In this document: piece after piece, positions 3,862 to 43,422 of the stretch
Position numbering within the stretch: the stretch's first letter is position 1
How the letters are laid out: every line of letters starts with the position of its first letter
DNA from: a virus
Direction: 5' to 3' (one strand)
Virus record (IMG/VR): IMGVR_UViG_3300037606_000123
Span: 59,032-123,031 of that record
DNA length: 64,000 bases
Made by a program: the position numbers and the translations under genes
Notes under the pieces: generated by a model
Told to the model about the DNA's origin: nothing
Databases searched by the model: none
The model's input: only the letters and a program-made list of their open reading frames with translations

Positions 3862-4617
3862 ATGATAACAAATATTAATGAGTTTAAAGTATACTTAAAT
3901 GAAAATGTTGATATGTCAACATTTTCAATCATACAAAGAAGTGATGGAATAATATCTAAATATGGTCAAGAAAATAATTTAGATATAGATGATTGTATTG
4001 AAAATTTAATATATTATAATATTATATCTGATAATTATACAGAAGACGAATTACGTATATTATTAAATAATTTAAAATTAAATCAAACACACACATTTGG
4101 TTCTAGATGGACACAAACAGAAGTCACAAAAACACATTCTAATGATACATTATTAGAAAATGTACGTATTCCACAAGAAGTTGAATTAAAGTTTGGTGTG
4201 AAGTATAAAAACATCAATTGGAATGATTTAAATCTTATTAATGTTGGTGTCTATGGTGATACTGTATTTTACGGTATTCAAATACCAGGGGAGAATAATA
4301 AATACAATAAAGGAATTATTGTTGATCTTAAAAATGAAGATGAATTAAATCGTATTGATATAATGATGGATTTTAATTTACAAGGTTTAGGATTAGGATA
4401 TAAAATTTATAAAAAAATTATAGAACAAACTGGACACATTTATTCATTATTTAATAAAAGAGTTAATGATGATGCTATTCCTAAAATTTGGGAAAAATTA
4501 AAAAACGATTCTGATATTGAAGTACATTCAAACAAAGATGGTGAAATAGCAATTTGGAAAAACATGAATGATAATGAATTAAAAAATAATTTAATTTCTA
4601 AAATAAATAACAAATAA
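3862..4617 (+). CDS. GNAT-like protein with candidate capsid-targeting leader
   Basis: The protein begins MITNINEFKVYLNE|N, the shared leader seen in several genes here and similar to the T4 internal-protein leader MKTYQEFIAE|A. Cleavage after LNE would fit the T4 gp21 rule (L/I)xE. The C-terminal third contains LQGLGLGYKIYKKI (about residues 173-186), which looks like the acetyl-CoA-binding motif A of GNAT acetyltransferases (Q/RxxGxG/A), with a preceding strand and a following helix. The acceptor is unknown. I infer an enzyme carried in the virion and injected. The leader match is clear and the GNAT call is moderate. It is the last gene before a terminator/tRNA region. Confidence 0.6.
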   Translation: MITNINEFKVYLNENVDMSTFSIIQRSDGIISKYGQENNLDIDDCIENLIYYNIISDNYTEDELRILLNNLKLNQTHTFGSRWTQTEVTKTHSNDTLLENVRIPQEVELKFGVKYKNINWNDLNLINVGVYGDTVFYGIQIPGENNKYNKGIIVDLKNEDELNRIDIMMDFNLQGLGLGYKIYKKIIEQTGHIYSLFNKRVNDDAIPKIWEKLKNDSDIEVHSNKDGEIAIWKNMNDNELKNNLISKINNK

Positions 4618-4702
4618 TTTTTATATTAAATTAATTATTAATATCTTTGTAAAGAATTTAATAAAGGAGTAAACTTTTTTAATATATAACAATATAATAA
4701 AC

Positions 4703-4780
4703 ATGAAAAGAATTTTAAACATACAAGCAGTTATAGGTCAAGCCGGGAGAAATCTACCGACTCAGAATTTGTATTGTTAA
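4703..4780 (+). CDS. Possible 25-residue leader peptide
   Basis: A short frame beginning MKRILNIQAVIGQAGRN and ending ...NLYC, started by ATG after an AT-rich spacer. It lies entirely inside the candidate leader RNA, upstream of the terminator. The second unit at 5538 has a similar short frame ending YNC. It may be a true leader peptide or only incidental to an RNA structure. Confidence 0.3.
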   Translation: MKRILNIQAVIGQAGRNLPTQNLYC

Positions 4781-4805
4781 TTTTTAAATATTTAACTACT
4801 ACTAA

Positions 4806-4838
4806 AACCTGAGTCAATTTGATTCAGGTTTTTTTTAT
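4806..4838 (+). terminator. Intrinsic terminator upstream of tRNA-Gly
   Basis: AAACCTGAGTC / GATTCAGGTTT stem with one G-T pair and an 8-T tail. It ends 8 bases before the tRNA-Gly gene. Upstream bases 4759-4765 can compete for its 5' arm. Confidence 0.8.
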
Positions 4839-4845
4839 TTATAAT

Positions 4846-4916
4846 GCAAGATATAGCTTAATGATAAAGCGCCACACTTCCAATGTGGAGACGGAGTTTG
4901 ATTCTCATATTTTGCT
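4846..4916 (+). tRNA. tRNA-Gly (anticodon TCC), degenerate T arm
   Basis: Acceptor GCAAGAT pairs with ATTTTGC (one G-T). The anticodon stem CCACA/TGTGG encloses loop CTTCCAA with anticodon TCC, which reads GGA. The T stem CGGAG/CTCAT has two mismatches and the T loop is TTTGATT rather than TTCRANY, so the gene is slightly degenerate. CCA is not encoded. Confidence 0.75.
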
Positions 4917-4930
4917 CTAAATTATAATAT

Positions 4931-5002
4931 GCACCATTAATTCAATGGTAGAGTAAATGTCTTATATACATTCGGTCATAGGTTCGATTCCTATATGGTG
5001 CA
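4931..5002 (+). tRNA. tRNA-Ile (anticodon TAT)
   Basis: A perfect 7-bp acceptor (GCACCAT/ATGGTGC), D stem ATTC/GAGT, anticodon stem AATGT/ACATT with loop CTTATAT, and T stem ATAGG/CCTAT with loop TTCGATT. The anticodon TAT reads ATA, a codon used heavily in this AT-rich genome and often poorly served by hosts. Confidence 0.85.
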
Positions 5003-5018
5003 CAAATAAAAAAATAAC

Positions 5019-5091
5019 GGGTTGATGTTGAAGATGGCTATCATAACGGTTTTGCAAATCGTTGTCCTGGGTTCAAGTCCCAGTCGATCCA
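5019..5091 (+). tRNA. tRNA-Ala (anticodon TGC)
   Basis: Acceptor GGGTTGA/TCGATCC contains a G-T wobble at the third pair, matching the G3:U70 identity element of tRNA-Ala. The anticodon stem ACGGT/ATCGT leaves loop TTTGCAA with anticodon TGC. The T stem CTGGG/CCCAG is perfect. A Cys (GCA) reading would need a badly mismatched anticodon stem, so Ala is preferred. The D stem has one mismatch. Confidence 0.75.
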
Positions 5092-5139
5092 AAATGTTTT
5101 TATTATTTAATATATAATAAAAACAAATATAAATTAAAC

Positions 5140-5532
5140 ATGAATCAAAGATATTTTAAAATAACAGCAAATGATGTAAATGACGCAAAACAATTAAAAA
5201 CAATATTACTAACAAAAAAGTTTTATCCAGAAACAACATCAACACCACCATTACCAGCAACAGTAACTGGAGGGTTTGATTACAGAAAATTGTTTCTTGT
5301 TATAGAAATTCAAAATGATGGTATTATTGTATTGACTAGATCAGAATATACTGTTGCACAATTTAATGTAAATGTAATACCAACATTAGATTGGACAACA
5401 AGATATAATTTATCTTTAGCACCAACAATTACATCATTACCAGAATATACAGAATATCGTAATGGTAAAAATACAACAACTTCAATACATGCGTTTTTAA
5501 ACTATGATTACACTTTAACAAATAATAAATAA
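5140..5532 (+). CDS. Hypothetical protein (130 residues)
   Basis: I do not recognise a family. The open frame extends upstream to 5062 but would overlap the tRNA-Ala gene, so the ATG at 5140 (MNQRYFKITAND...) is chosen; it follows TTTAATATATAATAAAAAC, the AT-rich block seen before many starts here. The protein is small, soluble and rich in Thr and Tyr. A beta-strand-rich composition suggests a compact domain. It lies between tRNA genes and may be a late or structural accessory. There is no evidence for a function. Confidence 0.6.
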   Translation: MNQRYFKITANDVNDAKQLKTILLTKKFYPETTSTPPLPATVTGGFDYRKLFLVIEIQNDGIIVLTRSEYTVAQFNVNVIPTLDWTTRYNLSLAPTITSLPEYTEYRNGKNTTTSIHAFLNYDYTLTNNK

Positions 5533-5537
5533 TTAAA

Positions 5538-5655
5538 ATGAAAAAAACAAATAAATACCAGCAAAATAACTTACAACAATTATATAATTGTTGACAGAAA
5601 TTGTATTATTAAAATTTTTACAAAAGTCTGTTAATATTAATTAACAGACTTTTTT
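5538..5655 (+). ncRNA. Second candidate leader RNA with short peptide frame, upstream of tRNA-Gln
   Basis: It opens with an 18-codon frame (MKKTNKYQQNNLQQLYNC, 5538-5594). A perfect palindrome ACAATTATATAATTGT (about 5576-5591) follows, then a CAGAAATTGTATTATTAA segment like the one at 4763-4780, then a strong terminator. Bases ACAGA at 5594-5598 can pair with TCTGT in the terminator 5' arm. The architecture parallels the unit at 4642. The function is unknown. Confidence 0.35.
5624..5655 (+). terminator. Intrinsic terminator abutting tRNA-Gln
   Basis: AAGTCTGTTAAT / ATTAACAGACTT stem with a run of Ts, ending 2 bases before the tRNA-Gln gene. The tRNA therefore needs read-through or a promoter within this element. 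Confidence 0.85.
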
Positions 5656-5657
5656 AT

Positions 5658-5729: not shown

Positions 5730-5753
5730 CAACAAAAACACTAAAACACTAAA

Positions 5754-6050: not shown

Positions 6051-6102
6051 TTTTTTATTATTCATATTATAACCATATTATTGTATAAATAAAAAAATTA
6101 TT

Positions 6103-6540
6103 ATGTTTGAATCAGAAATGTTTAAAAGTATATTAAAAAATATACCTAATATTATTGCAGAAGAAATAAAAAAAATAGATATTGAAGTTGAATTAAATAA
6201 ATTAAAAGATTTATATAATTCAACAACAAAAGAAACTTCGAAAGAAGAACCAAAAGAAACATCTAAAACAGAAGAAAAAACAAATGTAATTGTTACTGAA
6301 CCTGATGATTTAGGTAAATATGAAATTATATGTGAAATGCCTGGTATTTCTAAAAAAAATATAAGTGTTCAATTGAATAAAGGTGTTTTAAGTATTGATG
6401 CAGAACAAAACATTAAAAAATTCAATTATGAATTTATTGTTAATGATAATAAAATTTTACATGTTGAATTAAAATTAGGTATTTTAACAATTAAACTTCA
6501 AGAAATGTGTGCTACAATTGTTAATGTTGTAATTAATTAA
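6103..6540 (+). CDS. Small heat-shock protein (Hsp20 / alpha-crystallin)
   Basis: An ATP-independent chaperone that holds unfolding proteins. Residues about 66-145 form an alpha-crystallin domain: YEIICEMPGISKKNISV resembles the conserved start of that domain, and ELKLGILTIKL resembles the A-x-x-x-n-GvL-x-I-x-l signature. The N-terminal 65 residues are helical and contain a Lys/Glu/Thr linker. Hsp20 genes are well known in T4-like cyanophages, where they may assist capsid or tail assembly. A TATAAATA octamer lies at 6084-6091, 12 bases before the ATG, so expression may be late. The next gene begins 7 bases downstream. Confidence 0.85.
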   Translation: MFESEMFKSILKNIPNIIAEEIKKIDIEVELNKLKDLYNSTTKETSKEEPKETSKTEEKTNVIVTEPDDLGKYEIICEMPGISKKNISVQLNKGVLSIDAEQNIKKFNYEFIVNDNKILHVELKLGILTIKLQEMCATIVNVVIN

Positions 6541-6547
6541 TTAATTA

Positions 6548-7102: not shown

Positions 7103-7124
7103 ATTACTATAAATATTGAATAGT

Positions 7125-9916: not shown

Positions 9917-10150
9917 ATGTATGTTGAAATAGTTGAAATTTTAGGTGATGTTGAAATAGTTGAAAATAAAATAGGTAAAGCTATTTTATTTAGTATTATG
10001 GATAATGAATACAATTTTAATTGTATTTTATATATTGGACAAATGTTACCTTTTGTTACATTGCATGATAATGATAAAAAATATAATGATAATGATATTT
10101 TAAATTTAATTTTAAACAAGTATAAACTAGAAGAATTAAAAAAATTATGA
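9917..10150 (+). CDS. Hypothetical protein upstream of gp46
   Basis: A 77-residue protein that begins MYVEIVEILGDVEIVENKIG and seems to form small beta strands followed by a helix. No family is recognised. Its stop overlaps the next start (ATGA), so it is translationally coupled to the gp46 N-terminal gene and may act in the same process. Confidence 0.5.
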   Translation: MYVEIVEILGDVEIVENKIGKAILFSIMDNEYNFNCILYIGQMLPFVTLHDNDKKYNDNDILNLILNKYKLEELKKL

Positions 10151-10446
10151 TAATAAAAGAATGGTGGTTTAAAAATTACAAATCGTATGGAAATGTAACA
10201 CAAAGAATAAAATTAAATGATGAAGGTGAACTAATATTATTAGTTGGTGCTAACGGTAACGGTAAATGTGTCGAAAAAAATACAGCAATAGATATACATA
10301 TTGTTGATTTAGTATTGACAATAGAATTAATTAATTATTTGGAGACAACGGATAAGGGAAATAAAATATTACAATATATAAAAGAAACTAATAATATTTT
10401 ATATGACCGAATATACCAATTTAAGAAGAAAGAACTCAAAGTTTAA
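10147..10446 (+). CDS. gp46/SbcC N-terminal fragment fused to the N-half of a split intein
   Basis: Residues 1-40 are the start of the T4 gp46 (SbcC/Rad50) ATPase, ending exactly in the P-loop GANGNGK. At Cys41 the sequence changes to CVEKNTAIDIHIVD, a typical intein N-terminal block A with catalytic Cys1. The 59-residue intein portion stops at 10446. The intein block B, blocks F/G and the rest of gp46 are encoded by a separate gene at 11679. Together they predict protein trans-splicing: the two products associate, excise the intein and ligate GK to SSL, restoring the P-loop. The short N-half resembles atypically split inteins. The gene starts at an ATGA overlap with the preceding gene. The gp46 assignment is firm; splicing is inferred. 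Confidence 0.85.
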   Translation: MIIKEWWFKNYKSYGNVTQRIKLNDEGELILLVGANGNGKCVEKNTAIDIHIVDLVLTIELINYLETTDKGNKILQYIKETNNILYDRIYQFKKKELKV

Positions 10447-11701
10447 ATATTTAAAAAAATTCTTTGAATTCTTTAAAGACTATGAAAATTTAATAGTATC
10501 ATATGAAATATTATTAAATGATGTTAATATTACATTATTAAATTTTCAGAAAAACATTTTAAAAAAATATAATATGGTTGCATGTGGTAAACCAACTAAA
10601 TTATTTTGGTTACAACGTGGATATACGTTAGATGAATCTATTGTGCGTTGTAATGAGTATAAAGTTGTAAAAGATAAAACAAAATCACCAATGAATATTA
10701 ATTTTTGGTTGAATAAAGGATTTAGCGAAGAAGATGCTAAATTTAAAATAAAATCACAAAGAAAATTAAATATTGAATATTGGTTGAATAAAGGATTTAG
10801 TGAAGAAGATGCAAAGTTGTATGTAAGAGAATTTCAACTAGAACAAAATAATAAATATGTAAAGAAAAGAAAAAATAATCCAGATAAATATAATGCAGTT
10901 TCTGAAACACAATTAAAATATTGGTTGAATAAAGGATTTAGTGAAGAAGAAGGAAAAATTAAATTAAAAGAACGACAAAGAACATTTAGTAAAGATATAT
11001 GTATTAAAAAATATGGTGATGAATTAGGTTTAATTAAATGGAAAGAACGACAAGATAAATGGATAAATTCTTTAATATTGTCTGATTATGATTTATCATC
11101 AAAAAAATCAGTTACAACTAAATATAAAATAAATAACTATAATATTGATAAATTAATAGATTCATATACATTAATAAATAAAGAATTATTTAAAGAATTA
11201 TTTAAAAAATGTAAAAATATAGAAGAATTTGTAACCGATTATTCAAATCATTTTAATAATAATAATTTAGATGAAATTTCTTTATATAATATAATTAAAC
11301 CAATACAAAATTTAACTATATTATCAACATATTATAATACAGACAATAAACATATATTATCATTAATAATACCAAAAATTACTAGAATAAAAAGCAGATA
11401 TTCATATATTTCTTGGTTTAATGGACATATTTGTAGAAGTGATAGTGAATATATTATTGCAAATTATTTATTTAAAAACAATATAAATTATGTATATGAA
11501 AAATATTATAAAAATTCTAATAAAAGATGTGATTTTTATTTAACTGATTATAATTTATATGTAGAATTTTTTGGAATGACACATTCATATAAAACAAAAA
11601 TTGATTTTTTGAATATAAATAATATTAATTATTTATCTGATAGAAATCGAAAAAAATTAATAGAAAAAATTGATAATTATGTTAACAATACAAATAAATG
11701 A
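10403..11701 (+). CDS. Endonuclease gene between the split-intein halves
   Basis: This frame lies between the two gp46/intein genes, overlapping the first by 44 bases and the second by 23. It carries three or more copies of a W-L-N-K-G-F-S-E-E-[DE]-A/G-K motif (from about residue 94 to 185), probably small helix-turn-helix DNA-binding units. The C-terminus has a PD-(D/E)xK-like nuclease core: SDSEYIIANYL, then RCDFYL and YVEFFGM near residues 365-400, as in Vsr/EDxHD-type homing enzymes. This matches the 'fractured gene' arrangement described for phage-like metagenomic DNA, where a free-standing homing endonuclease separates split-intein genes. The start is uncertain: ATG at 10403, or 10574 (MVACGKPTK). 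Confidence 0.75.
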   Translation: MTEYTNLRRKNSKFKYLKKFFEFFKDYENLIVSYEILLNDVNITLLNFQKNILKKYNMVACGKPTKLFWLQRGYTLDESIVRCNEYKVVKDKTKSPMNINFWLNKGFSEEDAKFKIKSQRKLNIEYWLNKGFSEEDAKLYVREFQLEQNNKYVKKRKNNPDKYNAVSETQLKYWLNKGFSEEEGKIKLKERQRTFSKDICIKKYGDELGLIKWKERQDKWINSLILSDYDLSSKKSVTTKYKINNYNIDKLIDSYTLINKELFKELFKKCKNIEEFVTDYSNHFNNNNLDEISLYNIIKPIQNLTILSTYYNTDNKHILSLIIPKITRIKSRYSYISWFNGHICRSDSEYIIANYLFKNNINYVYEKYYKNSNKRCDFYLTDYNLYVEFFGMTHSYKTKIDFLNINNINYLSDRNRKKLIEKIDNYVNNTNK

Positions 11702-13589
11702 TTTATTAGAATTATCAAAATATACAAATATTTTGAAATCTGAAATACAAACAATGACACCAGCGGGATTAAAAAAGATTTTTGCTGTGGATATAACAGC
11801 AAAAAATAGTAAAATTTTAAATATAAAAACAAGTAAACATGAATTATCGTGTTCACCTGACCATTTGATTAAATCAAATAACGAATGGATAAAAGTTAAA
11901 GATTTGAAAATAGATCAAGAGATAGATACTAAATATGGCACTTATAATATTTTAAGTATATCTGAATTAGATTATACTGATGATTTATTGGATTTACATG
12001 TAGATACAAATGAATATTATACAAATGATATTTTAAGTCATAATTCAAGTTTAATTTCAAGTTTAGATTTAGCTTGTTACGGGGAAGAATTGAATAAACG
12101 TGGTAAAAGATTATCTAAAGGTAATTTTCCTAATAGAATTAATGGTGACATGGAAGTAGGTGTTATATTTAATACAGATCAAGAATTATATATAACACGA
12201 AAAATGGTGAATTTATCAGCACCAGTTAAAACAAATTTGGTTATCGATAAAATTCCATATAATAAAGCAAATAAAATTGAAGATAAGATTGTAGAAAAAA
12301 TTGGATTTGATTTTAAAACATATAAAAGTTTTATTTCAATGAATGTGAATAATTTTAAAAATTTTATTTCATTAACACCAGAAGAAAAAAGAATTTTATT
12401 GGATAAATTATTTAACTTAGAACAAATAAATGAATTAAATAAAATCCTTAAAGAATTACAAAAAACAAATTCTCGTGATATTACTTCTTTAAAATCACAA
12501 ATCGATGTTTATCTTGAAAATATATCTGAATTACAATCAACAGTTGATGCAGTTTTAGAAAAAAATAAAAATAATAATTATACAAGATTAAGTGAAATTA
12601 GTAAATTATTAATTGAACATAAATCAACATTTTTAATTTTAGAAAATTTAAAAGATTCTATTCAAGAAGAATTAGATATATTTTCTAATGGTATTAATAA
12701 ATTAAAAACAAAAAAAATAAATATTAACAGAGATATAATTGATATTGAAACAAAAATAGAATTATATAGTGGTGGTAAATGTCCAACATGTTTACACGAT
12801 TTATCAAATGAATTAAATTTATTGCCTGAATTACAGGAAGTTTTAAATAAAACAAAAGAAGTATTAAATAAAACAAACACAAAAATAAATGATGCAACTA
12901 TAGAATTACAAAATTGTACAACAACACATAGAAAAGCTATCACAGATTTACAATTATTAACACAACAAGTAAATTTATTACAACAAGAACAAAAGTCTCT
13001 TAAAAGTGATAAAAACAATAACATAGAAGATTTTAAACTTAATATAAAATCATTAGAAACTAAAAAAGAAGTAAAAGAAGTTGAATATTTAGAAATTCAA
13101 AAATTAAAATATGTTTATGATATATTAACACCAATTTGGGGTGAACAAGGTATTAAAAGAGATATTATAGATTCTATTATAGATCCATTAAATGAATTTA
13201 TAGAAGAAGATTTAATTCATTTAAAAACAAGATTTAGAGTACAATTAGATAATAATTTTGATGCACATATTTATGAATGGAATGAAGAAATTGATACTGA
13301 TACTTTAAGTGTTGGTGAAGAAAAGAAAATCAATTTAATTATTATGTTAGCATACATAAAAATGTTAAGAATGAAACGAAATATAAATGTTTTATTTTTA
13401 GATGAAGTATTTGCATCAATTGATATGCAAGGTATTGAAGACATATTAATTTTATTTAAGAAATTTGCAAATGAAAGAAAAATTAATATATTTTTAGTGC
13501 ATCATTCAGAATTAAATGAATACTTCTTTGATAGAATATTATACATCAAAAAAAATACTTTTTCTTACATAGAAGAAAAAATTATTTAA
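11679..13589 (+). CDS. Split-intein C-half fused to the main part of gp46 (SbcC/Rad50)
   Basis: Residues 1-122 form the intein C-part. A TPAGLKKIFAV segment precedes block B (SCSPDHLI), then comes a block F-like LLDLHVDTNEYYTNDI, and block G ends SHN at 120-122. Ser123 (+1) begins the C-extein SSLISSLDL, continuing the gp46 P-loop. The extein has long coiled coils, a zinc hook CPTC at 368-371, the ABC signature LSVGEEK at 543-549 and Walker B VLFLDE at 571-576. With gp47 it forms the nuclease complex that resects DNA ends for recombination-dependent replication and host DNA breakdown. The ATG at 11679 is preferred to a TTG at 11670. Its 3' end overlaps a convergent gene by 4 bases. Confidence 0.9.
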   Translation: MLTIQINDLLELSKYTNILKSEIQTMTPAGLKKIFAVDITAKNSKILNIKTSKHELSCSPDHLIKSNNEWIKVKDLKIDQEIDTKYGTYNILSISELDYTDDLLDLHVDTNEYYTNDILSHNSSLISSLDLACYGEELNKRGKRLSKGNFPNRINGDMEVGVIFNTDQELYITRKMVNLSAPVKTNLVIDKIPYNKANKIEDKIVEKIGFDFKTYKSFISMNVNNFKNFISLTPEEKRILLDKLFNLEQINELNKILKELQKTNSRDITSLKSQIDVYLENISELQSTVDAVLEKNKNNNYTRLSEISKLLIEHKSTFLILENLKDSIQEELDIFSNGINKLKTKKININRDIIDIETKIELYSGGKCPTCLHDLSNELNLLPELQEVLNKTKEVLNKTNTKINDATIELQNCTTTHRKAITDLQLLTQQVNLLQQEQKSLKSDKNNNIEDFKLNIKSLETKKEVKEVEYLEIQKLKYVYDILTPIWGEQGIKRDIIDSIIDPLNEFIEEDLIHLKTRFRVQLDNNFDAHIYEWNEEIDTDTLSVGEEKKINLIIMLAYIKMLRMKRNINVLFLDEVFASIDMQGIEDILILFKKFANERKINIFLVHHSELNEYFFDRILYIKKNTFSYIEEKII

Positions 13590-15495: not shown

Positions 15496-17745
15496 ATGAC
15501 AAGTAACTTTTCTATTAACCATGTATTTGAATCAGATTTACATATTAATATAACTATAAATGATGGTATATTTACAACATTCGGTCAAACATTTATAATA
15601 CAACATAACCCATCAATACAATTATTAAAAAATTTAATATCTTGGGATCATGTAGTATTAAATACTAGTTTAACAAATTATTTTGAAATTGAATATAGAT
15701 CGAGTTTTGATACAATTACATGGACACCATGGGTAAACATGCCAAATGATTTTAATAACTTTTTAGATCCTAATACATTTGGTAATGTTTGGTTACAAGT
15801 AAAATATAAATATATTTCAGATAATACTGGAGTATCTATAGAATTAAAAGAATTAAATATTAATGGTATAAGAACAGTTAATGAAATATTTGAACCAACT
15901 ATTATTACACCTGGTGATGTTGTAACTTATACCAATCAAGACACATATAAAGTTTTTTCTTTAAATGATTTTGAATTATTTTTACAAGATAATAATCCAC
16001 AAGATTTAAATATAGCTATTAGATATACACAAACACAAGGTAGATATTGGAGTGATTGGGTTCCATTAAATAGTGAAAATTTACAAAAGTTAAAATTTGA
16101 AAGATTAAAATTTGTAAATTTTCAATTTTCATTTCAAAATATAGGAAATGTAAATGTAAATTTATATGATTTAGAATTAATAGGTGAATTTCAAAATGTT
16201 ACAGCTAATTATGCAACAATTGCAAGAATGGGATTAAAAACACAATGTAATCCATTAGCAACAACATCTGCACCAACATGTGATGCAGAATTAAGAGCAA
16301 GTAATAATAATTGTGTTCCATGTTCTCAAGCATTAACACCATGGAATACAGACATTAGTGTATGTAATCCATGTAATAATTTTGTACAAATTAATGATAA
16401 ATCATTATGGCAAAATCAAATAAAATTATATGCAGAACTAAATGATTTTATTAATCAAGTAAATTCGTGGAAAGTGACATATTTATTAACAGATGCTGAT
16501 GGTAAAGGAATAGATCATTTATTACATGAACAACAAATACATAATGTTATTTCTAAAAAAGATATTAATGTAATTATACCTAATAATCAATTTCCTGTTG
16601 ATACTTTATATTTTTCTGGTTTAGATTTAGATTTAATACAGTCATTTGAAATACATATAACTAAAGAGTCATTTAAAAAAGTATTTGGTGTTGAATTTAG
16701 ACCAAGTAAACGTGATGTTGTTTACATTTGTGACATTAATCAATTATGGGAAGTTGAACAGATGTTTCCGAAACGCGGTTTTATGAATGCAGAAACTTAC
16801 TATAGAGTATTAATGAAAAAATACAGTGATAGAAAATCTAGACAATTTGCTAAAACAACTGAAGGTGAAGAAGCTAAATTATTTGTTGATGAACTTACAA
16901 AATATACAACATTAGATGTTTTATTTGATATTGATGTAAATGCAGAAGTTAAAAAGGTTACTAAAGATTTATTACCAATGGATATAGATAATCCATCGCA
17001 ACAATATACAGAAAAAACAATTATGAATTTACGCACAAGTATACACAATAAAGTAAGTATTTTAGATAATGAAATATGGAACGCAACATTAACAGTTGCA
17101 AAAAATGTATATGAAATGCCTGTAAAAAGTAGAAATTTAAAATTGGTTGAATATGTAAGTACAGATCAAACAATGAATATTGCTGATAACCGTGCATTTA
17201 CAATGTGGTTTAAAACACAAGAATACGATCCGACATATGATTGGACATTATTAAGCAATTATGATTATAGTAATAATACTGGATATAAAATAAATATTTT
17301 TTCAGGTGCATTGACATATCAATATAATAATAATGCATATTCAATACCTGTTGCATCGATGTTACCAAATACATGGTATGTTATATTAGTTAATATGGAT
17401 CAAGTTAAAAATAAATTAGAATTAGCTGTATATACAAGACAAAATGAAATTGGTAGAGATTTAACTAATTCACAATTAGTATTATTTAATAAAATGATAT
17501 TTGATATTATACCAGACGAATATACACACGATTCTAATTTATTTGTTGGTGGTTGTGATACATTTATATCAACTGGTAATACAAAAAAATGGTATTTAAC
17601 AAATATCCGTATTTGGAATGATGTTATTGAAAAAACTAAACGTACTATAGTTTTAAATGAAAATGTTGTTAATGACGCACAATTAACAATTATAGTTGAT
17701 AATGCAGAAAGAGATTTTAGTTTACCTAAATACGGTAATTTTTAA
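15496..17745 (+). CDS. Large structural protein with C-terminal LamG-like domain
   Basis: A 749-residue protein. Residues about 30-230 are beta-rich and include repeated W-x-x-W motifs (WTPWVNMP, WSDWVPLN), like galactose-binding or fibronectin-like folds. A cysteine-rich patch lies near 250-300 (NNNCVPCSQ, VCNPCNN). Residues about 560-740 fit a LamG/concanavalin-like jelly roll, with MWFKTQE, WTLLSNYD, WYVILVNMD and a final LTNIRIWND strand. The likely location is tail fibre, baseplate or capsid surface. It has an ATG start after a TATATAATA block. The stop overlaps the convergent gene by 4 bases. Confidence 0.65.
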   Translation: MTSNFSINHVFESDLHINITINDGIFTTFGQTFIIQHNPSIQLLKNLISWDHVVLNTSLTNYFEIEYRSSFDTITWTPWVNMPNDFNNFLDPNTFGNVWLQVKYKYISDNTGVSIELKELNINGIRTVNEIFEPTIITPGDVVTYTNQDTYKVFSLNDFELFLQDNNPQDLNIAIRYTQTQGRYWSDWVPLNSENLQKLKFERLKFVNFQFSFQNIGNVNVNLYDLELIGEFQNVTANYATIARMGLKTQCNPLATTSAPTCDAELRASNNNCVPCSQALTPWNTDISVCNPCNNFVQINDKSLWQNQIKLYAELNDFINQVNSWKVTYLLTDADGKGIDHLLHEQQIHNVISKKDINVIIPNNQFPVDTLYFSGLDLDLIQSFEIHITKESFKKVFGVEFRPSKRDVVYICDINQLWEVEQMFPKRGFMNAETYYRVLMKKYSDRKSRQFAKTTEGEEAKLFVDELTKYTTLDVLFDIDVNAEVKKVTKDLLPMDIDNPSQQYTEKTIMNLRTSIHNKVSILDNEIWNATLTVAKNVYEMPVKSRNLKLVEYVSTDQTMNIADNRAFTMWFKTQEYDPTYDWTLLSNYDYSNNTGYKINIFSGALTYQYNNNAYSIPVASMLPNTWYVILVNMDQVKNKLELAVYTRQNEIGRDLTNSQLVLFNKMIFDIIPDEYTHDSNLFVGGCDTFISTGNTKKWYLTNIRIWNDVIEKTKRTIVLNENVVNDAQLTIIVDNAERDFSLPKYGNF

Positions 17746-18633: not shown

Positions 18634-18990
18634 TTATTTAATCCAAATATCATTACTATCACCAAAATCATATAATGATTCTAAATAATCATTGAATAAA
18701 TCTGTAAAATTACCATCAAAACTATATTCTTGAAAAGTATCTTCTGGAATTGTACCATCTGCTAACTGTTTTAAAAAATCGAAATTATCAACAATTTCTT
18801 CTAATTCATATTTTACTGAATCATCTATTTTATTAATTAATCTTTTTAATTGATTAATTATAATATTACAAATTGTAATTACTTGTGCTTCATCATCAAA
18901 ATCTTCACCTCTCAAATGTTGTTTTATATCTAAATGGTATTTCCAATTTCTTTCATTAATTTGTCGAAATTCATTAATTGTTGTAATCAT
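18634..18990 (-). CDS. Small protein with candidate capsid-targeting leader
   Basis: It starts MITTINEFRQINE|R, the shared leader, with a possible gp21-type cleavage after INE at residue 13. The remaining 105 residues are acidic and helical with no recognised family. By analogy with T4 internal proteins IPI-IPIII, which are small, have a 10-residue leader and are injected, it may be an internal head protein. T4 IPs are mostly basic, whereas this is acidic. It lies between the degenerate Nudix and a hypothetical gene on the same strand. Confidence 0.6.
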   Translation of the reverse strand: MITTINEFRQINERNWKYHLDIKQHLRGEDFDDEAQVITICNIIINQLKRLINKIDDSVKYELEEIVDNFDFLKQLADGTIPEDTFQEYSFDGNFTDLFNDYLESLYDFGDSNDIWIK

Positions 18991-22790: not shown

Positions 22791-23036
22791 ATGAATATCG
22801 CTTCTATTAAAGATTATACAGAAAATTATTGGTACCGTGGATTTAAAAAAATGTATATTAAAGAATATTCAAATAACAAAATTTTATTTTCTAATAATGA
22901 TATTATAAAAATTGAAAATAGTGATATATATTTAAATAATAAATTAATATGTTCTGATCCAGATATAACAATAGAACAGTTCTTAGAATTATATAAATAT
23001 ATTTTAATAAAAAAAGGATATAAATTTACAGACTAA
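22791..23036 (+). CDS. Hypothetical protein (81 residues)
   Basis: A small soluble protein (MNIASIKDYTENYWYRG...) with no recognised domain. It opens a plus-strand operon after a TTTAATATATATAG promoter-like block (22772-22785). Its stop overlaps the ATG of the next gene (TAATGA), so the two are coupled and it may be functionally tied to the leader-bearing protein at 23036. Confidence 0.5.
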   Translation: MNIASIKDYTENYWYRGFKKMYIKEYSNNKILFSNNDIIKIENSDIYLNNKLICSDPDITIEQFLELYKYILIKKGYKFTD

Positions 23037-23419
23037 TGATAACTAATATAAATGAATTCAAAAAAAATAATAAAGAAGCAACATACGACAATTTAGCTGA
23101 TGATATTACTATTATAAATAAAGAAACATTAGAACCGATTAACTCCGACGAATATGAAATTGATCAAATAATAGATATTATTACAGATCAAGAAGAAATT
23201 AAAAAATTTGAAGGTGCATCAAATATTTCAAAAACAGATTTAACATATAAAACAGTTGATAGAAATGATATATTGTGGATTACTGTTATGTTAAAATCAC
23301 GTAATAACTCATCAGCATATCCGTTGGGAGAACTTGGGGTTGTTAAAGTGAAGGTTCTTCAAACATTTTATGGTTTAAATAAATTAAAACAATTAAAAAC
23401 AACAGATAAAATTTATTAA
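23036..23419 (+). CDS. Protein with candidate capsid-targeting leader (127 residues)
   Basis: It begins MITNINEFKKNNKE|A, with a possible protease site after NKE (less ideal than (L/I)xE). The following 113 residues are acidic and not recognised. There are no membrane segments or metal motifs. It is coupled to the small gene upstream and followed by the RuvC-like gene. It is treated as a candidate internal head protein. Confidence 0.55.
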   Translation: MITNINEFKKNNKEATYDNLADDITIINKETLEPINSDEYEIDQIIDIITDQEEIKKFEGASNISKTDLTYKTVDRNDILWITVMLKSRNNSSAYPLGELGVVKVKVLQTFYGLNKLKQLKTTDKIY

Positions 23420-24191: not shown

Positions 24192-25388
24192 ATGATTACA
24201 ACTATAAATGATTTTAAAAATATAAATGAAGCATCAAAAAAGAAAACTGATGGTTTTGATTTATTTATTATAGATACACAAAAAGAAAATAATAAAATGT
24301 TTAATGATGATAATTTAAAATCATTAAATAATTATAGTAAAGATTTTTCAAGAGTATTTCAATTATGGAATAGTACAAACACATCAAAACCAAGTTATGA
24401 ATTTAATAACCAAGTTAAATTTTATAGTACACAACAAGGTAGAAAATTATCATTAACAGATGTTTCATTATTATTTCATAAACCACAACAAGAAAATATT
24501 ATAAATAGAATTAAAAATATACCAGATGATTATGAAATGTTCGAAACAATTCATAATGAAATTTGGTTTTATTTAGGTTTTGATAAATGGTTTTTATTAA
24601 CAACAGAATTAGTTAAATTATTTAAAACATTTAAAAAACAAAACCGTAAAATTATTATTACAGGTGTAAAAAAATCATGTAATTTAATTTATCATATAAT
24701 GCGAAAAATGGAAATTGATGTAGAATATAATTTTGAATTTATTTTTGATGGTACACCAAGTGTATTAAAAGAATCTAAAAACATGTCAGGTGAAATTGAA
24801 TATATTAAAAATCATTTAGATCATAATCGAGGACAAGATGATTATCATATGGATATGGTATTAGATGATAATGTATTAGCATATGTTGATTATTCATTAT
24901 ATCGCGGTAAATTACATATTAAAATGATTGAAACTGTAATTAAAAATAAAGGTTATGGTTTAATGTTAATGAGAGAACTTGCAAAAGATTATGGTTATGA
25001 AAATATAGAACGAAATCAATTAACACCAGATGGAATGAAAATGCGTAAAAAATTAGATGATGAATTTAATTTTGATTATGAAAAACATATAAAAAATCAA
25101 AATAAACATATAAAAGCAGACGTAATTAAAGATATAAGAATAAAAAATTCTATAGTAGCAGATTTTTTAAGTGATATATTATTATTAGGTTCTGATGAAA
25201 CATGGAAAAAATGGTTGAAACGTTCAGATTATAATGATATAAATAATAAATTAGTATTAGATTTTAACTTAGATTTTAATGATATTAGTGATATATCTAC
25301 ATGGATTAAAAATTCACCGACTAATAACAATGATATATTACAAGATGTACCATATAATATTAAAAATGATTTAAATAAATTATTATGA
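24192..25388 (+). CDS. Large leader-bearing protein with GNAT-like domain
   Basis: It begins MITTINDFKNINE|ASKK, the closest match in the window to the T4 leader MKTYQEFIAE|AS, with an ideal INE|A cleavage site. Residues about 230-290 contain DNVLAYVDYSL followed by VIKNKGYGLMLMREL, which fits strand-turn-helix motif A of GNAT acetyltransferases. The N-terminal 200 residues and the C-terminal 100 are unassigned. I infer an enzyme packaged in the head and injected. The next gene overlaps by 4 bases (ATGA) and is also a leader-bearing GNAT, so the pair is probably made together. Confidence 0.6.
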   Translation: MITTINDFKNINEASKKKTDGFDLFIIDTQKENNKMFNDDNLKSLNNYSKDFSRVFQLWNSTNTSKPSYEFNNQVKFYSTQQGRKLSLTDVSLLFHKPQQENIINRIKNIPDDYEMFETIHNEIWFYLGFDKWFLLTTELVKLFKTFKKQNRKIIITGVKKSCNLIYHIMRKMEIDVEYNFEFIFDGTPSVLKESKNMSGEIEYIKNHLDHNRGQDDYHMDMVLDDNVLAYVDYSLYRGKLHIKMIETVIKNKGYGLMLMRELAKDYGYENIERNQLTPDGMKMRKKLDDEFNFDYEKHIKNQNKHIKADVIKDIRIKNSIVADFLSDILLLGSDETWKKWLKRSDYNDINNKLVLDFNLDFNDISDISTWIKNSPTNNNDILQDVPYNIKNDLNKLL

Positions 25389-25897
25389 TAACAAATATTT
25401 TAAATTTTAAAATATTTGAATCTGGTTTAAATAATGTTAAAATATATAATTCAGATGAATTTTATGAATACATTTCTACTAATGGACCACAAAAAACATT
25501 TGATCCTAGATTTTTACGTAAAAATGATGGTGGTAAAAAGGCATTTAAATATTACGAATATCAAGATTATAGTTCAATGTATGTAAATGTTGATAATACT
25601 ATATTTTTTGGAATATTTGAAAATGATATAATGGTTGGACTTTCAAGAATTTATTTAAATGATATAAATAAATCAAAAAATATTTGGTGGTTAACTTATT
25701 TATGTATTGATCCAATATATGAAGGTAAAGGATATGCTACACAATTAGCTGATTATATATTTAAATATTTTAAACAAAACAATTATACATTTGAAACATC
25801 TTCTTATACTGAACAAGGATTTATTAAATTAAAACCATTATTTAATCGTTTAGCATTAAAATATAATGTTACATTTATAGATAAAGAAAAATTCTAA
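25385..25897 (+). CDS. GNAT-family N-acetyltransferase with candidate capsid-targeting leader
   Basis: This is the clearest acetyltransferase in the window. Residues 103-125 read LTYLCIDPIYEGKGYATQLADY, a canonical beta4 / motif A (V-x-P-x-x-x-G-x-G-x-A) that binds acetyl-CoA. It starts MITNILNFKIFE|SG, the shared leader with a possible protease site after IFE. The 170-residue length is one GNAT domain plus the leader. The acceptor is unknown; in T4 the analogous leader directs the Alt ADP-ribosyltransferase, which modifies host RNA polymerase, into the capsid. It is coupled by ATGA to the gene at 24192. Confidence 0.75.
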   Translation: MITNILNFKIFESGLNNVKIYNSDEFYEYISTNGPQKTFDPRFLRKNDGGKKAFKYYEYQDYSSMYVNVDNTIFFGIFENDIMVGLSRIYLNDINKSKNIWWLTYLCIDPIYEGKGYATQLADYIFKYFKQNNYTFETSSYTEQGFIKLKPLFNRLALKYNVTFIDKEKF

Positions 25898-27076: not shown

Positions 27077-28462
27077 TTATTGATTTATTTGTTTATTAAA
27101 TTTTTTAGAACGAATTCCAACTAATTCACCAGATAAATATCTTGGATCATCTTTATCAATTCTATATACGATACCATTACAATCTTTAGTGACAATTTTA
27201 TTTTTTGCAATTCCAACTAATTCACCAGATAAAAATCTTGGATCGTTTATATCTACTTGAAAATTATTTTCATCTTTATCTTTAACAATAATTTTATTTT
27301 TTGCAATTCCAACTAATTCACCAGATAAGTATCTTGGATCATCTTTATCAATTCTATCTACAATACCATTACAATCTTTAACTGAAACTTTACCGGTAGC
27401 AATTCCAACTAATTCACCAGATAAAAATCTTGGATCGTTTACATCTACTTGAAAATTATTTCCATCTTTATCTTTAACAACAACTTTATTTTTAGTAAAT
27501 GTAATTAATTCACCATTTTTAAATCTTTCATCATTTTTATCAACATGATATATATTTCCATCTTTATCTTTCACACCTATTTTATTTTTTGAAAAACAAT
27601 AAAAATTATCAGTTTTATAAAATGGATCATCTTTATCAACATAATATATATTACCATCAATATCTTTAATATTCATTTTACCTGTTGATACCGCAACTAG
27701 TTCACCAGATAAATATCTTGGATCTGTTATATCTACTTGATAAAATTTACCATCTTTATCTTTTACAGAAATTTTACCTACAGTAATTGGAATTAATTCA
27801 CCAGATAAATATCTTGGATCTGTTATATCTACTTGATAATTGTTTCCATATTTATCTTTAACTTGAACTTTACCTACAGCAATTGGAATTAATTCTCCAG
27901 ATAAATATCTTGGATTTGTTATATCTACCTGTAATGTATTTCCGTCTTTATCTTTTACGACAACTTTATCAGTCATAATAAACTTTAATTCTCCAGATAA
28001 ATATCTTGGATCTGTTATATCTACTTGACAATTATTTCCATCTTTGTCTTTTACAGTTACTTTATCAGTAGCAATAAATTTTAATTCACCAGATAAATAT
28101 CTTGGATCTATTTTATCAATAAAATAATTATTTCCAATGTTATCTTTAACTATAACTTTACCCTTATTATTAATAGTTCCACCTAATATAATATTATATG
28201 TATCTTTTCTTAAAACAAAGTCATCATTTACTAATTCTAGTTCTTTATTTAACATATCTATTTTATTATCAAAAATATGTAATATTTCTTTTTTAAAATT
28301 TTCTTTTCCGTGTTTTTTAATAGATAATTTTAATTTTTTACCACTACCCAGATAATTATCATTTATATTATCTGTTATATGACATCCAATATAAATTTTA
28401 TTATTAATTAGATTTATTGTTTGATAAATTATATATTTTAACTCGTTTTGTGTATTGTTCAT
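27077..28462 (-). CDS. GIY-YIG homing endonuclease with 11 tandem 32-residue repeats
   Basis: The N-terminal 100 residues form a GIY-YIG nuclease of the phage Seg type: YIIYQTINLINNKIYIG (residues 10-26), then NYLGSGKKLKLSIKKHG and E-rich helices. From residue 102 to 453 there are 11 tandem repeats of 32 residues with consensus KVxVKDKDGN...QVDxxDPRYLSGELVGI, probably DNA-binding units. The ATG at 28462 is chosen; an upstream extension would run through the duplicated gp32 tail. The gene is antiparallel to gp32 and flanked by two copies of the gp32 3' end, a classical sign of a homing insertion. Confidence 0.85.
   Translation of the reverse strand: MNNTQNELKYIIYQTINLINNKIYIGCHITDNINDNYLGSGKKLKLSIKKHGKENFKKEILHIFDNKIDMLNKELELVNDDFVLRKDTYNIILGGTINNKGKVIVKDNIGNNYFIDKIDPRYLSGELKFIATDKVTVKDKDGNNCQVDITDPRYLSGELKFIMTDKVVVKDKDGNTLQVDITNPRYLSGELIPIAVGKVQVKDKYGNNYQVDITDPRYLSGELIPITVGKISVKDKDGKFYQVDITDPRYLSGELVAVSTGKMNIKDIDGNIYYVDKDDPFYKTDNFYCFSKNKIGVKDKDGNIYHVDKNDERFKNGELITFTKNKVVVKDKDGNNFQVDVNDPRFLSGELVGIATGKVSVKDCNGIVDRIDKDDPRYLSGELVGIAKNKIIVKDKDENNFQVDINDPRFLSGELVGIAKNKIVTKDCNGIVYRIDKDDPRYLSGELVGIRSKKFNKQINQ
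27104..28159 (-). repeat. Eleven 96-bp tandem repeats in the endonuclease gene
   Basis: Eleven consecutive 32-codon units; DPRYLSGEL or DPRFLSGEL is visible in nine, while units 6 and 7 are diverged. The last four alternate between two types (DKDGNNFQVD and DCNGIVYRID), suggesting duplication of a two-unit block. Confidence 0.9.
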
Positions 28463-28485
28463 AATATATATATTAATAATAAAAA

Positions 28486-28530
28486 GTGAAAAAAGCTGCA
28501 GCATTTTTTGAAGACGAAGACGAAGATTAA
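28486..28530 (+). pseudogene. Orphan copy of the gp32 3' end
   Basis: Fifteen codons reading VKKAAAFFEDEDED-stop align codon for codon with the last 15 codons of gp32 (KKKAAAFFFDSEED-stop, 26963-27007). It has no upstream gene body. A terminator follows, as expected behind an original gp32 gene. It is probably the remnant of the pre-insertion gp32 end. Confidence 0.8.
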
Positions 28531-36563: not shown

Positions 36564-36944
36564 TTAATTACTAATCCATTTTTTACCATTCCAATATGAC
36601 CAATCAACATTACCTGGAACCCATTCCATATCAATTTCAATATTTAATTTATCAATATTATCATATTTTTTTACTACTGTATTAATAATCCAATCATTTA
36701 ATGCTTTTATATCAAAAGGATTTGAATCACCTAAAACTATTGCAAGTTTTAATTCTTTTTTATTATAATAAGTGTTTCCATATTCACCATTACACATTAA
36801 ATGTAATGCTTCCGCAAATTTTTGTAATCGTTTCATATCAATAATGCTATCAAAAGTAATAATATTATTTTCATTAATAGAATCTATTGATTCATAATGT
36901 GTTATTTTTTTATTATTTTTAAATTTATTAATAGTTGTTATCAT
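36564..36944 (-). CDS. Protein with candidate capsid-targeting leader (126 residues)
   Basis: It begins MITTINKFKNNKKITHYE|S. The leader matches the shared motif; the best (L/I)xE-like site is less clear than in other members (THYE|S, or INE at about residue 25). The rest (residues 40-126) includes LAIVLGDSNPFDIKALNDWI and a Trp-rich C-terminus (EWVPGNVDWSYWNGKKW). No family is recognised. It lies 4 bases after the deoxyribosyltransferase-Nudix gene on the same strand. Confidence 0.55.
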   Translation of the reverse strand: MITTINKFKNNKKITHYESIDSINENNIITFDSIIDMKRLQKFAEALHLMCNGEYGNTYYNKKELKLAIVLGDSNPFDIKALNDWIINTVVKKYDNIDKLNIEIDMEWVPGNVDWSYWNGKKWISN

Positions 36945-40710: not shown

Positions 40711-40796
40711 ATGAATTATATAAATTATAAATAAAAAGTTTAATTATAATAAGACAATATAAAAATAATATATAATATAAATAATTATAAAATATT

Positions 40797-41129
40797 ATGA
40801 GAAAACCCCCAAAAAATGAAGAAGTTAAAGAAATAACAAATATAGAAGAAGTTAAAACTGTTGAAGTTAAAGTTGTTGAAGAAGTTAAAGTTGTTGAAGA
40901 AGTTGAAGAAGTTGAAGAAGTTGAAGAAGTTGAAACAGTTAAAGTTAAACCATTAACACAAAAAGAAATGTTTGATAATGCTATATCTGATTCTGGATTT
41001 TCAATTTATCAAAACGGTGTTTTAATTTGTACAGATAATCCATATTTAGTGATTAAAACAGAAATTAAATATTTTGAAATTTTCGGTGTTAAATATACAT
41101 ATAATGGAATAGAAATTAAATATGCATAA
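40797..41129 (+). CDS. Hypothetical protein with VEE(V) repeats
   Basis: Residues 10-55 are a low-complexity run of V-E-E-V / V-K-V-V-E-E units produced by 9-base tandem repeats (gttgaagaa, about 40867-40935); this segment is acidic and probably disordered or helical. Residues 56-110 look folded (LTQKEMFDNAISDSGFSIYQNGVLICTD, read in parts). No family is recognised. A TATAAATA octamer is at 40776-40783. The gene overlaps the next by 8 bases. Confidence 0.5.
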   Translation: MRKPPKNEEVKEITNIEEVKTVEVKVVEEVKVVEEVEEVEEVEEVETVKVKPLTQKEMFDNAISDSGFSIYQNGVLICTDNPYLVIKTEIKYFEIFGVKYTYNGIEIKYA

Positions 41130-43014
41130 TATTTTATCAAAAAAAAACGTATTAATATTAGAGGCTGCGGTACAGTGGAATAAATCTGCTTTAGGTATTT
41201 TAAGTAATGCTTTGTTTCGACCTATATCATTTTTAACAGGATCAATTAAAAAGGGTTTAAATAAACAACAAATGAATATTCTTGTTAAACAATGGGGATT
41301 AGAATACGTTAATGCTATTAAATTAGCTGATATTGATGATACAGATAGTGTAGATAATTCAGATGATATAGATGATGTTGATAATTCTTCAGGTGATTCC
41401 ATATTAACTGAAGAACAAAAAACAAAAATATTAACAGATATAACTAAATATAATACTAATTTATTAGCATTAAAAAAAATAGTACAACCACTTTTATCAT
41501 GGAGTAATGTTGATACAAAAGAAAAAGAATTTATTAAGTTAAAGTCAAGTATTGTTATTGATATTATTGATCCTAATTATTTAATATTTTTAAAAGATAA
41601 AAAAATTAAAAATACTGATAATTATAAAAAAAATGTTGACATAATAAATTCATTTTTAACAAATATAAAAAAATCACAGAATATTAGTGATTATTTAAAT
41701 ATAGCACAAGATATATCTAAATTTAATTCAACAATAAAATTAACATTAGCTAGTATTGATGATTTATTAGATATTAATGAAATTGTATCTTCTGAATTAA
41801 ATAATGAAGAATTAGGAAATAATACAGCACCAAAAAATAAAAAAGAATACAATACTGGTGATAAAATAAAATATCAAAAAAATACTGGTGATGTAGCGGA
41901 AGCAACTGTTGATGTTCAAAAAGACGTTAATTCTGGATTTATTAAAATTAAAACAAAAAATTCTTCTTTTGTTATAAAATTAGATAAAATTGTAGAATCA
42001 TATAATTATTTTATTAATGAAGCAAGTGAATATAGATTACCTAATAATGTTACTGATTTATTGTCTATAGATGAAATAAATAAATTAAAACAAGACCCAG
42101 ATATAAAAAAAAAAATCACGGATAAATTAAATTTTGAAAGATTAAATACTATCATGTATGAAGCAAATTATTTAATTGAGAAATTAAATGATAAAGATCG
42201 TAAAGATGAGTCTAAAGAATTAAAACGTGTTTGGGATTTAGGCGTACAAAACACAAATGATTATTTTCAAGATTTAGTTGATGTTAATAAAATTAAAAAT
42301 CAAGTAAAAGGTAGTACTGATTCTAATACTAAAAAAATTATAGTTGATGAACAAGAAAAATTAAACACGTTTCAAAAAATTGGTGCAAGTGAAGTTTTTG
42401 CTGTAGGTGATAAATTTGACAATAAAAAATTATATGCTTTTGATATAATGTTAACAGGACAAAACAATAAAATAAAAAAAATAATTTTATTTATGAGCCC
42501 TACTCAAGATTTTGTAGAAGATGTTGCTGGTGAAAAATATTTTTGGTTTAAATTATTTGGTGCATATACATTTGATGAAAAAAATAAAAAAATTATTAGA
42601 ACAAATCCATTTTCAAAATTAACACAAAATTCAGAATTAGTATCTAGTTTAATGACAGAAGGTGATTCCGTTTATATATCAACAAAAATGTTAAGACCAT
42701 CAGCAAGTTCGTCATATGTGTTTATTTATGATAAAAATGGAAAGTTTTTTTATAATACAAAAAAATATAATACTAGTGATGTTGCTACAGAAATAATGAA
42801 ATATAAAAAAGATGATTTAAATAAATCATTAAAAGATATAGCAAATACTGCAAATATAATGAAAATAAAAATTATTCAACGTTTTGTTATTGAAGATTCA
42901 AATATTAGTAGTAATAAATATCCAGGTATATCTTTATCTATATTAAATAATGACAAAGGTATAAATACAGCAAAAACAAATCACGATAAATTATTAAATC
43001 TATTAGGAACATAA
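41122..43014 (+). CDS. Hypothetical, probably virion-associated protein (630 residues)
   Basis: Not recognised. It begins MHNILSKKNVLILE|AAVQ, where LILE|A fits the T4-type protease rule. Around residue 295 the stretch ESYNYFINE|ASEYR closely resembles the T4 leader TYQEFIAE|AS, so maturation cleavage at one or both sites is plausible. An Asp/Ser-rich low-complexity segment lies at 72-92. The remaining regions are helical in the middle and mixed in the last 200 residues. It is followed after 3 bases by a leader-bearing gene and then by the tape-measure-like gene, so a head or tail role is likely. Confidence 0.5.
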   Translation: MHNILSKKNVLILEAAVQWNKSALGILSNALFRPISFLTGSIKKGLNKQQMNILVKQWGLEYVNAIKLADIDDTDSVDNSDDIDDVDNSSGDSILTEEQKTKILTDITKYNTNLLALKKIVQPLLSWSNVDTKEKEFIKLKSSIVIDIIDPNYLIFLKDKKIKNTDNYKKNVDIINSFLTNIKKSQNISDYLNIAQDISKFNSTIKLTLASIDDLLDINEIVSSELNNEELGNNTAPKNKKEYNTGDKIKYQKNTGDVAEATVDVQKDVNSGFIKIKTKNSSFVIKLDKIVESYNYFINEASEYRLPNNVTDLLSIDEINKLKQDPDIKKKITDKLNFERLNTIMYEANYLIEKLNDKDRKDESKELKRVWDLGVQNTNDYFQDLVDVNKIKNQVKGSTDSNTKKIIVDEQEKLNTFQKIGASEVFAVGDKFDNKKLYAFDIMLTGQNNKIKKIILFMSPTQDFVEDVAGEKYFWFKLFGAYTFDEKNKKIIRTNPFSKLTQNSELVSSLMTEGDSVYISTKMLRPSASSSYVFIYDKNGKFFYNTKKYNTSDVATEIMKYKKDDLNKSLKDIANTANIMKIKIIQRFVIEDSNISSNKYPGISLSILNNDKGINTAKTNHDKLLNLLGT

Positions 43015-43017
43015 ATT

Positions 43018-43422
43018 ATGATAACAACTATAAACGATTTTAGAAATAAAATAAATGAAAACATTGAGGAGCTTAATTCTAACAAAGAAGTTAAATTAAA
43101 AGCATATCAAGAAATTATAAAAAATTATAATTCACGTAAAGAAAGTTTAAAAAACATATTCAGTAAATCTCAAGATAAATGGGAAGAAGAAGCTGAAAAA
43201 ATAATAGAGGGAAATGTATATTTAGGTTTATTTTGGAAATTAACTAAATTAACTAAAATTATTAATGATGATGAAGAAAAATTAAAAAATAGTGAATTAA
43301 CAGATATAGAAAAGAAAGAAATTCAAACTAGAATTAATGATAATAAGAAAAAATTATCTGATGATCAGAATGAACTTAATAAACAGATACGTGAAGACCT
43401 ATCTGACATACAAAGATTATAA
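43018..43422 (+). CDS. Coiled-coil protein with candidate capsid-targeting leader
   Basis: It begins MITTINDFRNKINE|N, with the leader and an INE|N cleavage candidate. The remaining 120 residues are almost entirely helical and charged (KKEIQTRINDNKKKLSDDQNELNK), a long coiled coil. By analogy with T4 internal or scaffold-core proteins it may occupy the prohead core. It starts 3 bases after the 630-residue protein and ends in a terminator. Confidence 0.6.
   Translation: MITTINDFRNKINENIEELNSNKEVKLKAYQEIIKNYNSRKESLKNIFSKSQDKWEEEAEKIIEGNVYLGLFWKLTKLTKIINDDEEKLKNSELTDIEKKEIQTRINDNKKKLSDDQNELNKQIREDLSDIQRL

Follow-up and report, generated by a model that had tools for sequence, protein, structure and literature searches.

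Leader proteins, predicted cleavage site and protease

The window considered here takes up the right-hand end (64 kb) of a virus contig of 123,031 bp (IMG/VR record IMGVR_UViG_3300037606_000123, labelled G000 in the comparisons below), and its guanine-cytosine (GC) content is very low, at 23.7%. It encodes a set of proteins that begin with a common leader, typically of the form MITTINEFKNKLNE↓N (the arrow marks the predicted cut), together with a prohead protease and the major capsid protein (Table 1). An initial annotation had reported this leader on seven proteins, and all seven were recovered, the two minus-strand genes actually starting at 18990 and 36944. A motif search over the full contig brought the total to 11 leader proteins, eight in the window and three to its left, at contig positions 6119, 6989 and 12701. 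The pattern M[IV]TxIxx[FY] is found at 10 of the 137 called gene starts of the contig, but at only 1 of 633 internal methionines (Fisher p = 2e-7). The sole internal match is the eighth leader of the window, at 2678, where the ATG is either the true start or the beginning of an internal leader.

The bodies that follow the leader had been described as unrelated, and a BLASTP comparison among the leader proteins of the contig indeed detected no similarity between them (E<1e-3). Where their families are known, they are GNAT (the protein at 25385 and, judged by its relatives, the C-terminal half of that at 24192) and 2'-5' RNA ligase/Acb1-like (58757, with a non-MIT leader). Synonymous codons differ among the copies of the leader (ATA/ATT, ACA/ACT, AAT/AAC, TTT/TTC, AGA/CGA), and it is thus the peptide, not the DNA, that is conserved. 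Since, in addition, no shared DNA was found upstream of the leader genes, the leader does not represent one recently copied DNA cassette, and a shared promoter or DNA cassette was ruled out as the source of the similarity.

With regard to the [IL]xE site noted close to the leader, it is present in six of the seven proteins first described (LNE↓N, INE↓R, INE↓A, IFE↓S, INE↓N, and INE↓N at residue 25 in the protein starting at 36944). The seventh (23036) carries NKE↓A, where the ortholog from a relative reads IRE↓A. A loose leader pattern alone was too weak (190/1128 vs 340/4667), and the test was therefore repeated on leaders from the contig and six related contigs that were classified by residues 1-8 alone (n=55), hence blind to the site. 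An [ILMVF]xE motif lies within residues 9-26 in 46 of these 55 leaders, whereas shuffling of residues 9-70 (2,000 trials) gave 18 on average and never more than 34. The strict site [ILMVF][NRSAK]E[NASRTGI] was found in 33/55 leaders; the stretch that follows in these proteins gave 4/55, and proteins lacking a leader 34/593. Sites are mostly [IL]NE↓[NSA], with INE↓N or INE↓S the most frequent form, and in 34 of 47 sites the glutamate is one of residues 12-14. Little information came from pooling the positions of [ILV]xE into a profile. The pairing of I5 or F5 with F8 or Y8 in all 55 leaders was fixed by the design of the search, and a hydrophobic/aromatic pair three residues apart is enriched at gene starts relative to internal methionines in ten genomes.

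The gp21-type protease that the initial annotation had proposed at 53261 proved to be real. A model of its protease domain (residues 1-215), of moderate confidence (mean pLDDT 65), had T4 gp21 (5JBL) as its only match below 1e-3 in the PDB (Foldseek 8e-7), and a profile search also ranked 5JBL first, though weakly (E=0.014). The protein contains the conserved motifs YGEFDHPD and FVSSRAAG, which would fit a His-Ser protease. It harbours a site of its own near the N-terminus, LKLNE↓S (55673-55726), and in most relatives the protease begins with a stretch ending in [LI][NS]E↓[SA]. The phage's major capsid protein shows the leader-type motif as well, at a position given by sequence alignment: when the capsid proteins of 12 relatives are aligned, all share [IVM][NK]E↓N in one place, where E54 and N55 do not vary. 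Protease and an acidic, coiled, probably scaffold region form one protein, which measures about 700-820 amino acids (aa) in relatives and is annotated as one in Tenacibaculum phage PTm1.

Leader dialects and putative cargoes in related phages

Judged by their capsid protein, the relatives of this virus comprise uncultured huge phages, Lak phages, Sphingomonas phage PAU, Tenacibaculum phages and Chryseobacterium phages. Scanning viral contigs for the DNA pattern of MIT[TNK]IN[DE]F returned 26 stretches in 13 contigs. One of these contigs, G018, carries the leader on 18 of its 77 called genes (23%), with the site present in 14 of the 18 and no internal match past residue 20. The MIT leader also occurs in G025 and G017, with a GC content of 41.6% and 32%, respectively. 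More distant relatives use other dialects, that is, other leader consensus forms, namely MKYLKxFE[SN], MKKIxxYEFINES, MKTFKEFVNE and the T4-like MKNYQEFIKEA, and the isolate MA9V-2, a cultured Chryseobacterium phage related to this virus, encodes MKTFTYFINE↓A between its portal and protease genes and has MKNFFSFINE↓A as a further leader. A strict dialect pattern matched 66/1128 starts versus 17/4624 internal methionines (p=3e-32). In T4, used as a control and covered for the most part, a related pattern built on these genomes retrieved ipII and ipIII only, with 0/786 internal matches.

Orthologs allow descent and sorting to be told apart. Members of the 6119 family bear MIT leaders in G000 and G025, but MKY leaders in G002, G003, G005 and G011. 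In the 43018 family, the leader is of the MIT type in G000 and G017 and reads MKKFQLFLEE in G001, the alignment being MITTINDFRNKINE↓NIEELNSNKEV in the contig against MKKFQLFLEE↓VKNINSDKEV in G001. In the G018 protein at 17675, MITTINEFKKYMSQ precedes the body, whereas the G017 ortholog, 73% identical, begins directly with the body. Because orthologous bodies switch dialect or lose the leader, the latter is an exchangeable module with a genome-wide consensus. The view of the initial annotation that the leader is a sorting signal rather than a trace of common descent is borne out by these cases. The T4-like leaders of relatives and the non-MIT leader on an orthologous body agree with a capsid-targeting leader of the T4 type.

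The Pfam domains identified in proteins with MIT leaders are GNAT, SprT-like, LPD11, LPD29, phage lysozyme, DUF5661 and 2H/Acb1, while those in other dialects include N6/N4 DNA methylase, HNH, ankyrin repeats, SprT-like, DHH and lysozyme. Domains of the LPD and metallopeptidase types characterise polyvalent proteins, for which injection has been predicted (PMC5512222). Some cargoes are composite. Each half of the protein at 24192 has relatives with a leader of their own, and its C-terminal GNAT-like half, whose fold weakly matched GCN5, exists in G017 and G018 as a protein by itself, with a leader; assignment of the N-terminal half to isochorismatase-like hydrolases was not confirmed by a fold search. 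In a 361-aa protein of G017, two domains are separated by a complete leader, MITTIDEFCSVNE↓SS. Read from their sequences, such proteins may be cleavable tandem cargoes, or else their starts may have been mis-called.

In the upstream regions of G018 and G017, the element TTAATATATAA, possibly a late promoter, stands ahead of several leader genes and of virion genes that include the one for the tail sheath. It precedes leader genes in G018 in 8/11 cases versus 3/33 (p=1e-4), and was not enriched in G000, G025 or G026; given this, and since it was chosen after seeing the data, we consider it only suggestive.

Capsid loading weighed against other readings

The internal proteins IPI, IPII and IPIII of T4 carry a capsid targeting sequence (CTS) that is cut by gp21 after (L/I)xE; its ten N-terminal residues are enough for packaging, residues 4 and 7 matter for targeting and residues 8 and 10 for cleavage, and foreign proteins fused to it get packaged and delivered (PMC9026906). 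In record NC_000866, T4 ipI begins MKTFKEF...ITE↓A. The sequence features expected of a T4-type CTS were found here, namely a shared leader of 10-20 residues on otherwise unrelated proteins of one genome, an (L/I)xE motif directly after the targeting part, and a gp21-family prohead protease encoded in the genome. The i/i+3 spacing is also kept, with I5 and F8 in the leaders of the window versus positions 4 and 7 in T4, and relatives of the clade display near-T4 forms such as MKNYQEFIKEA. The differences lie in the consensus, MITTINEFK..[IL]NE↓[NSA], with the aromatic residue at 8 and the site mostly at 12-14; in the proportion of called genes tagged, up to 23% (G018) versus two genes by a similar pattern in most of T4; in a dialect that varies by lineage; in some cargoes being fused, with internal leaders; and in the union of protease and core region in one protein, where T4 has separate gp21 and gp22.

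The shared N-terminus is very probably a T4-type CTS that has grown into a large modular head-loading system. This agrees with the capsid-targeting reading of the initial annotation, in favour of which stand the site found blind, its recurrence in the capsid protein and protease N-termini, and the gp21-fold protease. What can be read from the sequences at hand is the shared leader, its site, the unrelated bodies, the switching of dialects and the gp21-fold protease; core binding, cleavage, packaging, injection and effector roles are what we infer for this phage. Late in infection, the leader of 11-18 residues would bind the prohead core through a hydrophobic residue at position 4/5 and an aromatic one three positions on (I5, F8), the docking surface probably being the acidic core region fused to the protease. 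The shell would then enclose the core with its cargo, and the gp21-type protease would cut after [IL]NE, a motif that it would also use on the capsid protein, removal of the leader freeing mature cargo within the head. The cargo would be ejected with the DNA and act at once in the new host, possible effectors being acetyltransferases, an Acb1-like cyclic-oligonucleotide phosphodiesterase, and proteins with SprT-like and polyvalent-protein domains. Within the clade, the leader would serve as a general loading tag that unrelated genes gain or lose, its consensus being kept uniform within a genome, and two-domain cargoes would arise by fusion.

On balance, we lean towards the wider proposal of an address code for capsid loading in huge T4-related phages, whose hosts are probably Bacteroidota. 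The code would differ by lineage, mark up to a quarter of all genes and co-evolve with the phage's own core and protease. Unrelated counter-defence and takeover effectors, some of them as cleavable tandem cargo with internal leaders, would be loaded into the head and delivered with the DNA, and the virion cargo of uncultured phages would be readable from sequence. To our knowledge, a role has been assigned to only a minority of huge-phage genes. If the leader marks head-loaded cargo, searching for the motif would suffice to name the proteins that uncultured phages inject, and could lead to new anti-defence factors. The leaders would also be available as new, orthogonal tags for directing proteins into phage heads, and would illustrate how a single address label stays uniform across dozens of unrelated genes in a phage lineage.

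Several points weigh against this picture. The leader-binding part of the core is putative. In nine of the 55 leaders no clear site can be recognised, at least one leader (G017 2_16238) matches by chance, within a body that is conserved, and the 55 are not fully independent because some are orthologs. No leader was detected by pattern in the 50 kb sampled of Tenacibaculum phage PTm1, which has the same protease. Furthermore, a lysozyme of G017 also bears the leader; it may be virion-borne or an exception.

Other phage systems resemble the present one in part. In phiKZ and SPN3US, many head and ejected proteins are matured after glutamate by a gp21-related protease, but their propeptides are mostly long (~80-130 residues) rather than one common short leader, and the cut follows S/A-x-E, with a different P3 preference (PMC5694885, PMC9026906). 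Cleavage of the S/A-x-E type was not found here: P3 is I, L, M, F or V in the leaders, a class fixed by the search, and I, V or M in the capsid protein, where the alignment was unconstrained. Polyvalent injected proteins (PMC5512222) and MuF/portal-fused effectors (PMC9503650) have overlapping domains (LPD11, LPD29, SprT-like metallopeptidase, GNAT, 2H); they are large multidomain chains or head-protein fusions, whereas the contig encodes small separate proteins sharing an N-terminal leader. The searched literature, from which subscription papers were excluded, yielded no description of such leaders in huge phages. The principle is that of T4, and what is new, as far as this literature shows, is the scale, a dialect that depends on the lineage and changes on conserved bodies, and the variety of cargo resembling counter-defence proteins.

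Among other explanations, the one that survives best retains the leader as a targeting and cleavage signal, with cargo that acts in the prohead or virion, in core building or DNA condensation, instead of being injected as effectors. It could draw on the protein at 43018, which adjoins virion-type genes, and on T4 IPIII, for which a role in head morphogenesis has been proposed, the exact role being unsolved (PMC9026906). We hold it to be unlikely, as the domains of the cargo (GNAT, 2H/Acb1, SprT-like, LPD) are those of enzymes that typically serve host takeover or counter-defence, and the cargo set, unlike structural parts, differs strongly among relatives.

It seems improbable that the leader is an address to another place, such as the membrane or a replication compartment, or a degradation or translation signal, beside which [IL]xE would be incidental. 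Some leader proteins do lack a known head role, and many leaders have no close head-gene neighbour; yet the site is far above chance and identical to those of the capsid protein and most protease N-termini, relatives have T4-like leader forms, and the leader peptide is conserved where its codons are not.

Still less credible is common descent, by duplication of one leader-bearing family whose bodies diverged past recognition or by mobile DNA that spread the start region. A few leader proteins are paralogs within one genome (G018 4111/13434; G027 7030/10200), and a clearly paralogous array exists in Agrobacterium phage Atu_ph07, where gp53-gp63 (L145:29484-40592) form a tandem series of 11 proteins with an 8-residue leader of the M[KR]W.QL[NT]E type and a YRG motif; that they are ADP-ribosyltransferase-like is a guess. 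The published Atu_ph07 virion proteome comprises 131 proteins, and mass spectrometry found 29 proteins within the cluster of coding sequences 31-76, which contains gp53-63. Since the array is paralogous, we treat it as a lead only. The bodies considered here belong to different families (GNAT, 2H, SprT-like, LPD11, lysozyme), mostly without mutual similarity, synonymous sites are scrambled and upstream DNA is unshared, and conserved bodies gain, lose or change leaders, which largely refutes common descent. A chance effect of AT-richness and of the many I, N, K and E codons in the genome, a notion favoured by the 23.7% GC and by the 10% Ile and 9% Asn of G000, is refuted by the internal-methionine and shuffled controls from the same proteins and contradicted by the same leader in G025 and G017 at their higher GC, and deserves practically no credence.

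Further features of the window

Table 1. Leaders, leader-like segments and head-maturation proteins in the window
Feature	Position	Strand	Protein and remarks
Eighth leader MVTTIENFKKIIKE↓	2678..2719	+	In-frame second ATG of open reading frame (ORF) 2480-3187; cut before N
Leader-like internal segment FNFFKYLKE↓NM, putative	3206..3859	+	217-aa protein; segment between two parts
Leader MITNINEFKVYLNE↓	3862..3903	+	251-aa protein (3862-4617); C-terminal half homologous to leader-bearing proteins in relatives
Leader MITTINEFRQINE↓	18952..18990	-	118-aa protein (18634-18990)
Leader MITNINEFKKNNKE↓	23036..23077	+	127-aa protein; G025 ortholog MITNINQFLIRE↓AMDNLSDDI
Leader MITTINDFKNINE↓	24192..24230	+	398-aa two-domain cargo
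Leader MITNILNFKIFE↓	25385..25420	+	170-aa GNAT acetyltransferase
Leader MITTINKFKNNKKITHYESIDSINE↓	36870..36944	-	126-aa protein; site late, residue 25
Probable leader MHNILSKKNVLILE↓AAV	41122..41163	+	630-aa protein
Leader MITTINDFRNKINE↓	43018..43059	+	134-aa protein; orthologs MKKFQLFLEE↓ (G001) and MITSINEWRKVNE↓ (G017)
Major capsid protein	51167..52918	-	Predicted pro-peptide, residues 1-54, ending VNE↓NVAY (52757-52918)
Prohead protease with long acidic C-terminal region	53261..55726	-	821 aa; residues 1-215 fold like T4 gp21
Probable non-MIT leader MKEIDLIPSFNEFKKLLLE↓	59531..59587	-	276-aa 2H phosphoesterase/Acb1-like protein (58757-59587); G001 ortholog MNINILSRLEFNRHFRKMNE↓KTENQSYSSGC
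Possible leader MKSLKLKLFE↓	61367..61396	-	426-aa head-cluster protein

The 630-aa protein at 41122 contains a further site, (F)INE↓ASEY, between its two halves, which reads IFE↓ASEY in G017 and G026. With regard to the 426-aa head-cluster protein, its N-terminus is identical in G001 and has diverged in G016 and G017.

Other genes of the window show features of their own. In the protein encoded at 47998-49104 (+), residues 138-208 form a 71-residue stretch that is 70% identical to residues 278-348 of the portal (55785-57515) and is apparently a copy of that part of it; the stretch seems to be absent from the 164-aa counterpart in G001. An SbcC/gp46-like gene (10147-13589, +) is split at the P-loop by an apparent intein with a homing-endonuclease-like ORF (10403-11701). 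The Family B DNA polymerase ORF (49631-51115, +) ends after 494 aa, as does its G001 ortholog after 497 aa, and the polymerase is probably split. The product of 27077-28504 (-) combines a GIY-YIG-like N-terminus with about a dozen tandem repeats of VKDKDGNxxQVDxxDPRYLSGEL.

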